The position numbers and the translations under genes were made by a program. Source: Rhodospirillaceae bacterium (GTDB lineage: Bacteria; Pseudomonadota; Alphaproteobacteria; GCA-2731375). Taken from it: a stretch of 64,000 nucleotides of DNA. Positions 9,424 to 15,257 of the stretch are shown here, in pieces. Where the stretch lies: contig JABJKS010000034.1 of NCBI GenBank assembly GCA_018660265.1, forward strand, positions 1-64,000, read 5' to 3'. The notes under the pieces were generated by a model. That model made no database searches. It saw nothing but the letters and a program-made list of their open reading frames with translations, and was not told the DNA's origin. Positions within the stretch are counted from its first letter, which is position 1, and every line of letters starts with the position of its first letter.

Positions 9424-10632
9424 CTAGCCAAGAAGGGATTGGTAAACGGCCATGATGCGGTCGCACATCAAAGACACCGTAAAGTTCGCCATGACGTTGT
9501 CGCGGCCATTGGCGGCCATTGTCTCACGCTCTATCTGGCTCAGACTCAGGGCCCGTTCCAGGGCGACAGCCAGGGCCTCTGCATTGTTGGGCGGCACCAA
9601 CCAGCCACTTTCATTGGGCCAGACGGTTTCGCGCGCGCCGCCATGATCTGTTGCGATCACCGGACGGCCCATGGCCTGGGCTTCCACCGCAACGCGGCCA
9701 AAGCCTTCCGGGTGGGTCGAGGCTGAAACGACGACATCGGCCAACATATAGGCCGCCGCCATATCGCTGCAATGATCGACCACACGGACCACCTGGTCCA
9801 TGCCTTTGCGCCGCGCCTGTTCCTCCAGCTCCGTACGGTAGGCGGTGCGGCCCTGATCGCCGCCGACCAGAACACAGCAGATATCTTTCCGCCCCAGGAT
9901 CGCCAGGGCATCGATCAGGACGGCTTGCCCCTTCCACCGGGTCAGGCGGCCGGGCAGCATGATAACAGGCCGGTCGTCGTCCAACCGCCAGGGCCGGGCG
10001 GCCTGGATAATGCGCTCCGCACTGACTTTGGCGGGGTCAAACAAGTCTGGGTCAATACCGCGATGGATTGTCACCAAACGGTGGTTAGGCACGCCATAGA
10101 CTTCGCGGGCATGTTGGGCGACGAAATCGGAGATCGCGATGACCTTGTCACCCTTCGCCATAACCGCGTTATAGTAATGTTTCAGTTTGTTGTGGCCATA
10201 GGCATTGTGGAAGGTCGTGACAAAGGGCGTCGACGTGCGCCGGGCAGCGCTCAATGCGCTCCACGCCGGGGCCCGGCTGCGGGCATGGATCAAATCAATG
10301 CCGTGGCGGTTGATCAGATTGGCCAGAGCATCGCCATTGCGCAGCATGCGGAACGGCCGCTTCGCAGCCAATGGCAGTGCAATATGTTCTGCACCGATGC
10401 GTGTTAATTCATGGGTCATCAAGCCGCCGGACGATGCAACCATGGCCCGCCAGCCGGCAGCCGTTAACGCGGCGGCAGTCTGTATAGTGCCCCGTTCAAC
10501 GCCGCCCATTTCCAGTGCCGGCAACACTTGCAAAACCAGTGGCCCGGATGCGGGTCCTGCCGCTTCCGCACCAGCTTTCGCGGGGGGGTCGGGAATGCTA
10601 GGTTGCGCCTTAGACTGCAATGAACTGTCCAT
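9424..10632 (-). CDS. Glycosyltransferase family 4 (GT-B fold)
   Basis: Retaining glycosyltransferase of 402 residues. The N-terminal acceptor domain carries LQVLPALEMGGVERGTIQTA. The C-terminal GT4 nucleotide-sugar domain carries VIMLPGRLTRWKGQ and the EX7E-like region around ASTHPEGFGRVAVEAQAMGRPVIATDHGGARETV. The first 25 or so residues are low-complexity and may be a linker, or the true start may lie further in. With the GT9 gene downstream it probably builds LPS core or another surface glycan. Its 5' end overlaps the upstream region of the divergent hydrolase gene, whose ATG is only 21 bases away. Confidence 0.82.
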   Translation of the reverse strand: MDSSLQSKAQPSIPDPPAKAGAEAAGPASGPLVLQVLPALEMGGVERGTIQTAAALTAAGWRAMVASSGGLMTHELTRIGAEHIALPLAAKRPFRMLRNGDALANLINRHGIDLIHARSRAPAWSALSAARRTSTPFVTTFHNAYGHNKLKHYYNAVMAKGDKVIAISDFVAQHAREVYGVPNHRLVTIHRGIDPDLFDPAKVSAERIIQAARPWRLDDDRPVIMLPGRLTRWKGQAVLIDALAILGRKDICCVLVGGDQGRTAYRTELEEQARRKGMDQVVRVVDHCSDMAAAYMLADVVVSASTHPEGFGRVAVEAQAMGRPVIATDHGGARETVWPNESGWLVPPNNAEALAVALERALSLSQIERETMAANGRDNVMANFTVSLMCDRIMAVYQSLLG

Positions 10633-10652
10633 TTAGATTAGGTGTATCCATC

Positions 10653-11405
10653 ATGATCGATACGAAGCCGGCGTTCCTGACCCGCGAGGACGGAACCAGA
10701 ATCGCCTACCATCATACCCCAGGCACAGGCCCCGGTGTGATCTTTTGTGGTGGCTTTATGTCCGACATGACCGGCACCAAGGCACAGGCCCTGGAAGCTG
10801 CCTGCCAAGCATCCGGGCGCACATATACACGTTTTGACTATCGTGGCCACGGCCAATCGGACGGCCAGTTCGAAAAGGGCACAATCGGTCTGTGGGCCGA
10901 TGATGCCCTGGCCGTCCTGGATCAGATTACAACAGGGCCACAAATCATCGTCGGGTCGTCCATGGGCGGGTGGATCATGCTGTTGGCGGCCAAGGCACGG
11001 CCCGAACGCATCGCGGGCCTGGTCGGCATAGCGCCGGCACCTGACTTTGTTCTTCGCATGTGGGAAGGTTTCTCTGACGAGATCAAGGCAACCCTGCGCC
11101 GGGACGGGGTTTATCGCGCACCGTCGGAATATGATGATGAACCTTACGCCATTACCCTGAACCTGATCGAAGAAGGGCGGCAACAACTGGTTCTGCAGGA
11201 AGACCTGAAGGTTAGTTATCCCGTCCGCATACTGCACGGCATGGCGGACCCGGATGTACCCTGGCGGCAATCCCTGGAAATTGTGGAGCGTTTGCAGGGT
11301 GATGACATCATCGTCACCTTTTCAAAAAGTGGCGATCATCGTCTTTCCGAGCCTGATGATATCGCCCGCCTGATCCATACGGTTGAGACATTAGCGCAAA
11401 CCTGA
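10653..11405 (+). CDS. Alpha/beta hydrolase (ABHD10-like)
   Basis: Soluble serine hydrolase of about 250 residues. The nucleophile elbow is GSSMGG. The catalytic Asp lies in GMADPDVPW and the His in GDHRLSEPDD, so the triad is complete. An early RFDYRGHGQSDG strand is also typical. It resembles the ABHD10 / palmitoyl-thioesterase branch, but the substrate is not known. ATG at 10653 (MIDTKPAFL) is chosen because the in-frame ATG at 10620 overlaps the divergent glycosyltransferase start. It is the last gene before the small-RNA interval. Confidence 0.78.
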   Translation: MIDTKPAFLTREDGTRIAYHHTPGTGPGVIFCGGFMSDMTGTKAQALEAACQASGRTYTRFDYRGHGQSDGQFEKGTIGLWADDALAVLDQITTGPQIIVGSSMGGWIMLLAAKARPERIAGLVGIAPAPDFVLRMWEGFSDEIKATLRRDGVYRAPSEYDDEPYAITLNLIEEGRQQLVLQEDLKVSYPVRILHGMADPDVPWRQSLEIVERLQGDDIIVTFSKSGDHRLSEPDDIARLIHTVETLAQT

Positions 11406-11448
11406 CCTAGCACGTTTCCGACGCACCGGACGTCTCGGACATGTCGTC

Positions 11449-11508
11449 TGTTTGAAATTGGCCCACTGTCCCGCATAAACGCAGACACCTGTTCCAAATT
11501 GGAACAGG
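11449..11508 (+). promoter_or_regulatory. Two enhancer (UAS) palindromes upstream of sRNA 1
   Basis: The palindrome TGTTCCAAATTGGAACA, extended to 10-bp perfect arms at 11488-11497 and 11499-11508, is centred 86 bases upstream of the -12 cytosine of the sigma-54 promoter. A second site TGTTTGAAATTGGCCCA (11449-11465) matches it at 13 of 17 positions. The geometry (TG-N2-CC-N5-GG-N2-CA) is that of NtrC-type enhancer sites (consensus TGCACC-N5-GGTGCA). The binding protein is inferred, not shown. Confidence 0.65.
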
Positions 11509-11569
11509 CTTGTGATTTGCCTACAGGTAAAACGGCTGAATTCTACGATTTACAAAACCTCCAGCCAAC

Positions 11570-11585
11570 TGGCACGGGCTTTGCA
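11570..11585 (+). promoter_or_regulatory. Sigma-54 promoter 1
   Basis: TGGCACG-N4-TTGCA matches the sigma-54 consensus at every specified position, with GG at 11571-11572 (-24) and GC at 11583-11584 (-12). Transcription should start near 11596. No coding region follows within 400 bases on this strand. Confidence 0.85.
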
Positions 11586-11595
11586 TTGTATGTGA

Positions 11596-11726
11596 TGTAA
11601 GTCGAATGGCACATTGCCCGGCGGCTTCATTGCATTGCTTTTCTCTTTAGTTGGTTGTTCGTGCCCTCAAATAACCAATTATACTCAGGCGCAGATCGCT
11701 TCAGTGGTCTGCGCCTTTTTCTTTTT
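11596..11726 (+). ncRNA. Small RNA 1 of a tandem pair, sigma-54 driven
   Basis: Predicted transcript of about 131 nt running from the sigma-54 start to an intrinsic terminator. The 5' part (GATGTAAGTCGAATGGC...) and the segment TGCATTGCTTTTCTC are shared with sRNA 2. A hairpin with a stem of about nine pairs (11648-11656 with 11673-11681) presents a loop containing CGTGCCCTCA, identical in both copies. The stem sequences differ between copies, but pairing is kept. That indicates selection on RNA structure. The short reading frames here have no ribosome binding site, and the other copy does not conserve them. It may act in trans on ribosome binding sites through the CU-rich loop. I could not assign it to a known RNA family. 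Confidence 0.75.
11687..11726 (+). terminator. Intrinsic terminator of sRNA 1
   Basis: The arms AGGCGCAGA (11687-11695) and TCTGCGCCT (11708-11716) extend inward to a TTCA loop and are followed by the T-rich tract TTTTTCTTTTT. Confidence 0.9.
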
Positions 11727-11759
11727 GGCCTGGCGTCCAAGAGTCTCGACATCGACACA

Positions 11760-11799
11760 TGCCCCAATATGGCACATATTTTTGACCCAAATTGATACA
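11760..11799 (+). promoter_or_regulatory. Two enhancer (UAS) sites upstream of sRNA 2
   Basis: TGCCCCAATATGGCACA (11760-11776) and TGACCCAAATTGATACA (11783-11799) match the sRNA 1 palindrome at 12 and 13 of 17 positions. The second is centred 85 bases upstream of the -12 cytosine, against 86 in copy 1. The first also fits the NtrC consensus at 13 of 17. The sites lie between the terminator of sRNA 1 and promoter 2. Confidence 0.6.
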
Positions 11800-11861
11800 C
11801 TCCACCACAGACTTGAGCAATATTACAGCAGTTTTCTGCGTTTCTATAAATTCTTAGGAAC

Positions 11862-11877
11862 TGGCACGTTGCTTGCA
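11862..11877 (+). promoter_or_regulatory. Sigma-54 promoter 2
   Basis: TGGCACG-N4-TTGCA is again an exact match to the sigma-54 consensus, with GG at 11863-11864 and GC at 11875-11876. The predicted start is near 11888. The start regions of both copies carry GATG. Confidence 0.85.
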
Positions 11878-11887
11878 TATTAATAGA

Positions 11888-12025
11888 TGAAGATCGAACG
11901 GCTATATGCCCGGAGATCTGAGACTATGCATTGCTTTTCTCTCTTAGTCGGTTGCCCGTGCCCTCAGGTGGCTGGCTATTATTTCGGCGCTGATCGTGTA
12001 AGTGATCAGCGCCGTTTTACTTTTT
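11888..12025 (+). ncRNA. Small RNA 2 of a tandem pair, sigma-54 driven
   Basis: Paralogue of sRNA 1, about 138 nt. It shares the 5' end (GATGAAGATCGAACGGC), ATGCCCGG and TGCATTGCTTTTCTC. Its hairpin has arms TAGTCGGTT and GGCTGGCTA. These pair throughout, with several G-U pairs replacing the A-U or G-C pairs of copy 1. The loop contains the same CGTGCCCTCA. The transcript ends in a strong terminator 12 bases from the convergent SnoaL-like gene. Two homologous sRNAs with separate promoters suggest additive or differently timed regulation, as known for other duplicated sRNAs. This is inference. Confidence 0.75.
11985..12025 (+). terminator. Intrinsic terminator of sRNA 2
   Basis: The 11-bp perfect arms CGGCGCTGATC (11985-11995) and GATCAGCGCCG (12004-12014) are followed by TTTTACTTTTT. 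Confidence 0.9.
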
Positions 12026-12036
12026 GGGAACAGCCA

Positions 12037-14834: not shown

Positions 14835-14956
14835 CCCCAGACGGCTAGGAAAAATTGTCCTGTTTTGGGGCATTCATGAGGCAGATTTTGCGACAGTTCG
14901 ATAGCACTTTATCATTTGCCGGCGGCAGATCCCTTGAAATTAGCCAAAAATGTTTT

Positions 14957-14972
14957 TGGCATAATTCTTGCT
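14957..14972 (+). promoter_or_regulatory. Sigma-54-like promoter 3
   Basis: TGGCATA-N4-TTGCT keeps the invariant GG (14958-14959) and GC (14970-14971) at the same 12-base distance as the two sRNA promoters. It lies 45 bases upstream of the 79-residue protein. A weaker UAS-like sequence TGTCCTGTTTTGGGGCA (14856-14872) lies about 107 bases upstream of the -12 element, but it overlaps a possible terminator of the aminotransferase gene. Confidence 0.55.
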
Positions 14973-15017: not shown

Positions 15018-15257
15018 ATGGCACATGAATTTGTTATAAATGCTTCGAAAGTAAACATCGATTTCGACCGCGCCCAATCATTGATGAATGAAACCTTGGC
15101 CGAATTGTCGGCCCATTGGGTGGACCACAATGAGACCATATTGAAGCGAACAGGCATCACCGATCACAAGCAGGCTTTGTTCGATAATTATTGCCGACGG
15201 CATCTGGAACATTTTGGCGAACATTTCGCCCCGGACCTCATGGCCGATCCGTTCTAG
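15018..15257 (+). CDS. 79-residue protein of unknown function
   Basis: Small soluble protein, acidic and rich in His, Asp and Glu, predicted mainly alpha-helical (FDRAQSLMNETLAELSAHWVDHNETILKR). I do not recognise a family. It has no signal peptide or membrane segment. The ATG is preceded by a modest purine-rich region. It stands alone between the aminotransferase and the convergent rpoH. The sigma-54-like promoter upstream suggests it belongs to the same regulon as the tandem sRNAs. It could be a nitrogen- or stress-responsive small protein, but this is inference only. Confidence 0.6.
   Translation: MAHEFVINASKVNIDFDRAQSLMNETLAELSAHWVDHNETILKRTGITDHKQALFDNYCRRHLEHFGEHFAPDLMADPF

Follow-up and report, generated by a model that had tools for sequence, protein, structure and literature searches.

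The best-known case of multicopy sigma-54 small RNAs (sRNAs) holding back their own activator is Vibrio quorum sensing, where the binding sites of the activator LuxO are of the TTGCA type; in enterobacteria, the homologous sigma-54 sRNAs GlmY and GlmZ are likewise governed by one enhancer-binding protein (EBP), GlrR, through TGTC-N10-GACA dyads. The Vibrio RNAs Qrr1-5 are homologous, depend on sigma-54 and are activated by the NtrC-family response regulator LuxO, whose production they repress in a negative feedback loop (PMC3262071; PMC2680268). In rhizobia, the alpha-r14 RNA NfeR1 folds into three hairpins that carry a conserved anti-Shine-Dalgarno (anti-SD) motif, CCUCCUCCC, on drifting stems, is transcribed from an NtrC-repressed sigma-70 promoter, and pairs with the start region of an autoregulating NtrC-family system, NtrBC (PMC10746234). 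Lastly, in the PrsR regulon a 17-nt activator motif, the PEP-CTERM box, which is sometimes repeated and ends in TTTACA, stands ~63 nt before the sigma-54 promoter (PMC1569441).

The window described here (the whole stretch of DNA that was analysed, 64,000 nt) contains two homologous non-coding units, A (11570-11724) and B (11862-12020), whose predicted circuit follows the logic of Qrr and LuxO. Unlike the Qrr RNAs, A and B have no Rfam match and are thus not recognisably related to them; their predicted seed is a hairpin loop, their operators are 17-bp TGYCCC dyads, and the orphan response regulator proposed below as their activator scores 382 bits against a LuxO model with a cut-off of 800. 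With NfeR1 they share the alphaproteobacterial setting, the three hairpins, an anti-SD motif on drifting stems and, by prediction, a target in the start region of an NtrC-family gene, but they differ from alpha-r14 RNAs in presenting one loop, CGUGCCCUCA, per RNA, in their sigma-54 promoters, in their regulator and in the absence of an Rfam match. Homologous sigma-54 sRNAs under a single EBP with TGTC...GACA dyads also recall GlmY and GlmZ, yet the spacing differs (a 17-bp dyad here), no Rfam family matches, and the orphan regulator reaches only 342 bits against the GlrR cut-off of 763. A repeated 17-nt activator motif before a sigma-54 promoter is likewise found in the PrsR regulon, but regulation of the PEP-CTERM/PrsR kind was rejected: the genome has no PrsR over the cut-off, and the motif here differs, the TTTACA end being that of PrsR. 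By the tests made, the putative A/B circuit is a member of neither the Qrr/LuxO nor the NfeR1/NtrBC family, given the lack of an Rfam match, the regulator score below the LuxO cut-off and the different loop and promoter.

Units A and B lie in tandem in an intergenic region, with an alpha/beta hydrolase gene (10620-11405) on one side and an opposite-strand NTF2-like gene on the other. Each consists, in order, of a promoter, a 5' hairpin, the unpaired segment TGCATTGCTTTTCTCT, a 12-bp stem capped by the loop CGTGCCCTCA, and lastly the terminator and its T tract (Table 1). An earlier note on this DNA had claimed two non-coding units with an exact TGGCACG-N4-TTGCA promoter, hairpin arms that differ yet remain paired, an identical loop and strong terminators, all of which we find again. 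The exact promoter pattern occurs at A and B and nowhere else in the window, and over the whole genome the looser TGGCAYG-N4-TTGC is found 22 times, against 4 for the reversed pattern. In alignment, the units downstream of the promoters agree at 84% mean column identity; TGCATTGCTTTTCTCT and the loop are common to both, and the stem arms have diverged with pairing kept. Folding is much stronger than in shuffles (z of -5.3 for RNA A and -4.1 for RNA B), and covariation among 21 copies exceeds chance. Both terminators end in T tracts. The start of RNA A is inferred, ~12 nt past the -12 GC. The four operator dyads ahead of A and B fall within the span reported earlier and were missing from that note's list.

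Table 1. Features of the tandem RNA units and of the probable co-regulated small gene, in window positions
Feature	Position	Strand	Basis or remark
Operator dyad A site 1, TGTCCCGCATAAACGCA	11467-11483	+	-103 from -24; degenerate; same place in A copies
Operator dyad A site 2, TGTTCCAAATTGGAACA	11490-11506	+	Perfect palindrome, -80; top-scoring dyad in 1.68 Mb
Sigma-54 (-24/-12) promoter, RNA A	11570-11585	+	Exact match; conserved among homologues
Small RNA A (predicted)	11595-11724	+	Covarying structure; covariance model match, 135 bits
RNA A hairpin 1 (AAGTCG...CGGCTT)	11599-11627	+	95% of cells paired; double changes in 3 pairs
RNA A hairpin 2	11648-11681	+	Double changes in 9/12 pairs
RNA A loop CGTGCCCTCA, predicted seed	11660-11669	+	Loop columns near-invariant
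RNA A intrinsic terminator hairpin, then T tract	11687-11716	+	Structure alignment; T tract
Operator dyad B site 1, TGCCCCAATATGGCACA	11760-11776	+	-102; ranks second among dyads in 1.68 Mb
Operator dyad B site 2, TGACCCAAATTGATACA	11783-11799	+	-79; dyad scan
Sigma-54 (-24/-12) promoter, RNA B	11862-11877	+	Exact match
Small RNA B (predicted)	11887-12020	+	Covariance model match, 123 bits; fold z -4.1
RNA B hairpin 1	11891-11919	+	Structure alignment
RNA B hairpin 2	11945-11978	+	Loop CGTGCCCTCA at 11957-11966
RNA B intrinsic terminator hairpin	11985-12014	+	Structure alignment; T tract
Operator dyad TGTCCTGTTTTGGGGCA, probable same regulon	14856-14872	+	Conserved at syntenic place in G006
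Sigma-54 promoter TGGCATAATTCTTGC of small gene	14957-14971	+	Stretch TTTGGCATAATTCTTGCTT identical in G006
Gene for a 79-aa small protein, probably a co-regulated target	15018-15257	+	ORF conserved in G006

The best model for these observations is a negative feedback circuit like that of Qrr and LuxO, built from unrelated RNAs, with expression, activation and base pairing inferred. From the -24/-12 promoters present in the DNA, sigma-54 RNA polymerase is inferred to transcribe A and B as tandem trans-acting RNAs; activation would come from an orphan NtrC-family regulator binding the two observed 17-bp dyads (TGYCCCAAWWTGGSACA) that precede each -24 element by ~80 and ~103 bp. The RNAs would then expose the conserved loop CGUGCCCUCA on a stem that drifts in sequence and is still paired, and the loop is predicted to pair with ribosome-binding sites, the use of Hfq being likewise inferred. 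Observed complementarity places the activator's own mRNA among the predicted targets, at its Shine-Dalgarno/start region (UGAGGGCA-AUG); pairing there would close a negative feedback loop, on top of the direct repression that the activator likely exerts on its own promoter. Taken as a whole, from sigma-54 transcription of the tandem sRNAs through orphan-regulator activation and loop pairing to feedback on the activator mRNA, we regard this model as probable. If true, it would be a second, unrelated instance in a different class, meaning that the circuit design evolves repeatedly, and a general test would become possible of what duplicated feedback sRNAs are for. Beyond the earlier note, it names an orphan response-regulator EBP as the likely activator and adds a probable feedback on that EBP's mRNA and further regulon members. 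The orphan regulator, which is conserved over several alphaproteobacterial families, thereby gains a predicted DNA-binding motif and first targets, an assignment made in a genus known from marine metagenomes.

A DNA search found one to three copies of the units in every other species of the genus examined (10/10) and, at its sensitivity, none outside the genus. The resulting set of 21 copies from 11 species has conserved -24/-12 promoters and two dyads ~23 bp apart, and A and B are, on sequence evidence, paralogues, with loops closed by TT/AA in A copies and by CC/GG in B copies. The copies occupy the same place in nine genomes where the syntenic neighbour is visible; the exception, G001, has one copy in another context. 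The relatives with copies are uncultured 'Rhodospirillaceae' or Alphaproteobacteria, the named ones all metagenome-assembled genomes, and their isolate names, read as places (for example the Arabian Sea, Black Sea, Caspian and Saanich Inlet), suggest a marine origin. A covariance model built from the 21 copies found nothing convincing outside the genus in 385 genomes of the class; under laxer filters it recovered a single copy that had been held out, from a second genus within the family (G011; 95 bits, E 3.7e-19). This copy carries the loop GTGCCCTCA, lies behind a -24/-12 promoter with a 22-bit operator dyad at -78, and shares its upstream neighbours with the others. Matches to the DNA pattern outside the family (Reyranella, Rhizobiales, Dictyobacter, Bacteroidaceae, Opitutia) do not have the structure and were dismissed as chance, and the covariance model's matches to further families in the class (E 1e-4 to 0.04), rejected for want of the loop and promoter, mostly look like generic GGCGC stem-loops or coding sequence. 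Separately, G001 holds a diverged extra copy (C397, L205:1579-1760) that retains the promoter, part of the first hairpin and the terminator, its loop now reading CGCGACCTCC.

The start region of the orphan regulator gene reads GGTTGAGGGCAATGG, within which TGAGGGCA is exactly complementary to TGCCCTCA, a part of the loop. Among 1,390 predicted gene starts (30% of the genome), no other start/ribosome-binding site is complementary to the loop over 8 nt without a mismatch; shuffled loops find such a site at 2.4 genes on average, which puts the chance for one named gene at ~0.2%, although the match was noticed post hoc, in data already seen. The 8-mer is present in 8 of the 12 RNA-bearing genomes (G000, G002, G004, G005, G006, G007, G008 and G011), including the second genus, where it appears as GAGGGCAC in a different register, shifted two positions within the loop; the site is shortened to 7 nt in G003 and 6 nt in G010 and is absent from G001 and G009, as the 8-mer is from three genera without a detected RNA. 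The genome also encodes hfq. On this complementarity, and with no binding data, RNAs A and B probably turn down their own activator through start-region pairing. It remains possible, if less likely, that the orphan regulator activates the RNAs without any feedback on itself and that the loop acts on other mRNAs: the loop complement contains the SD-like GAGGG, the target site is gone in some species in which the loop is intact, and other starts are better in duplex energy. With G-U pairing permitted, the regulator's start comes only 17th for the RNA A loop and 37th for the RNA B loop among 1,388 starts, so that equally good targets may exist. What speaks for feedback nonetheless is the uniqueness of the exact complement and its recurrence in the second genus in another register. 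Across gene starts there was no enrichment of the seed (7-mers, 12 observed vs. 11.5 expected), and by this test the loop is thus not a broad anti-SD element.

The inferred identity of the activator rests on the operators. All 21 promoters have upstream 17-bp dyads, mostly two, 22-23 bp apart and usually at ~-80 and ~-103 from the -24 element; at RNA A, site 1, which is degenerate in A copies, lies 23 bp upstream of site 2. In the 1.68 Mb (30% of the genome) to which the operator and target statistics are confined, the top three dyads belong to RNA A, RNA B and the orphan regulator promoter, and the fourth and fifth lie inside reading frames without a sigma-54 promoter. A whole-genome search for operator and promoter combined, strict enough to miss degenerate sites, returned only A and B. 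Proteins whose main match is an NtrC-type sigma-54 interaction domain, the candidate EBPs, number only four in this genome: NtrC, NtrX, FlbD and the orphan regulator; NtrX lacks the GAFTGA sequence, and FlbD was rejected, as the absence of the dyads from the flagellin sigma-54 promoters is evidence against it. The orphan regulator gene, located elsewhere in the genome (G000 C109:151267-152697), encodes a receiver domain (PF00072), an AAA+ sigma-54 interaction domain (PF00158) with GAFTGA and a Fis-type HTH (PF02954). Every family member checked has a dyad directly upstream of this gene, TGTCCCGAAATGGCACA or closely similar; it is seen in ten genus members besides G004, at the remnant of the gene in G004, and in four further genera. 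This dyad overlaps a TTGTCC-N17-TANNNT element resembling a sigma-70 promoter, and an operator overlapping its own promoter is the usual picture of a regulator that represses its own gene. The orphan regulator is thus likely both to activate RNAs A and B, by elimination and shared operator and without binding data, and to regulate itself, the autorepression again being inferred. In G008 its gene has one in-frame stop. In G004 (C73, L299:1720-2215), a genome with a single RNA copy, the gene lacks codons 66-377 and is out of frame, with operator and ribosome-binding site intact; this may be a natural loss, an assembly error not being excluded.

An unlikely alternative is that NtrC activates the sRNA pair as part of the nitrogen response, that the RNAs act on other targets, and that their match to the orphan regulator mRNA is incidental. 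The genome does hold ntrBC and P-II genes, NtrC-type scoring also picks the sRNA dyads, if slightly lower, and the dyads share length and centre with NtrC sites, which are of the form TGCACC-N5-GGTGCA. No high-scoring dyad, however, precedes the P-II genes (glnB, glnK and a third), where NtrC's own sites remain unresolved, whereas the orphan regulator promoter has one in every family member checked. A sigma-54 promoter with one dyad-like site (G000 C72:2743-3000; L104:1401-1660) stands before a 34-aa frame, a luciferase-like oxidoreductase gene and amt-glnK, and may be an NtrC promoter.

That A and B act as RNAs, as we propose, is consistent with how the copies have diverged. Over the 21 copies, 94.5% of pair cells hold standard pairs and 18 of 34 base pairs have changed on both sides, values that none of 500 shuffles reached in either case, and pairing falls to 23-48% in slid controls. 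These figures partly count shared descent; clean compensations are seen where the loop-closing pairs switch between A and B (UA to CG) and at a terminator base pair (AU to CG). In Rfam no family matches at the gathering threshold, the only score being a sub-threshold 16.9 bits for frnS, and the open-licence papers searched describe no alphaproteobacterial sigma-54 sRNA family with this loop. Homologues with compensatory changes, the absence of which would have spoken against the earlier note, do exist, and no described family matches as far as Rfam and the searched literature go. Its reading of the locus as a sigma-54-driven pair of homologous sRNAs tied to a sigma-54 activator is supported by the -24/-12 elements, the EBP-type dyads, the covarying structure, the terminators and the absence of a conserved frame or Rfam family. 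Of the features expected of a sigma-54-dependent trans-acting sRNA, those readable from sequence are present, namely a promoter at fixed distance, upstream dyads (21/21), structure with terminator and no conserved ORF; transcription of A and B and its dependence on sigma-54 remain inferred, there being no expression data. Very little favours short leader-type peptides (e.g., MHCFSLLVGCPCPQ) as the products instead: A and B do have a common frame after a 1-nt indel (LVGCxCPQ), and B an ATG near its start, but frames, starts and stops are not conserved over the 21 copies and substitutions track base pairing, and we rejected this reading. That the units are decayed, functionless repeats, as the variable copy number (1-3) and the diverged G001 copy might suggest, can be dismissed almost outright, being already contradicted by covariation and by stems that diverge while loop, promoter, operators and pairing are conserved.

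The putative regulon seems to extend to a third sRNA with the same seed (CCCUCA) and to a 79-aa protein. The former is a C-type sigma-54 unit (G000 C84:104197-104340; L108:1501-1640) with related operators, a hairpin loop GGCCCTCACC and a strongly conserved GGGTCGAACGACCACACCTAG, found by DNA search in 7 of 11 genus genomes, with full promoters seen in five copies; the CCCTCA seed is common to it and A and B, its sequence as a whole is not, and no clear T tract is seen at its terminator. The 79-aa gene, inside the window, has its operator and promoter arranged as in A and B, the dyad lying at -101 from the -24/-12 promoter. We consider it an even question whether a circuit of the Qrr/LuxO type has arisen independently in marine Alphaproteobacteria, in which one orphan regulator would drive two different sequence families of sRNAs, A/B and C, with at least three members that silence the regulator's mRNA and others through the common CCCUCA seed, alongside small proteins of the regulon. 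The last part of the 79-aa protein has a weak Pfam match to AcrIC5 (20 residues, 29.8 bits) that is probably not meaningful. An unexplained recurrent element of the type GGCTGAAAACNGCGATTT (11532-11550 in the window, ~-45) lies between operators and promoter, without being an obvious IHF site, at the same position ahead of most RNA copies and also before the 79-aa gene. In G003 (C1, L179:1594), a strong dyad, TGTGCCAATATGGAACA (21.6 bits), and a -24/-12 promoter precede a gene for a 428-aa protein that likely has a signal peptide.
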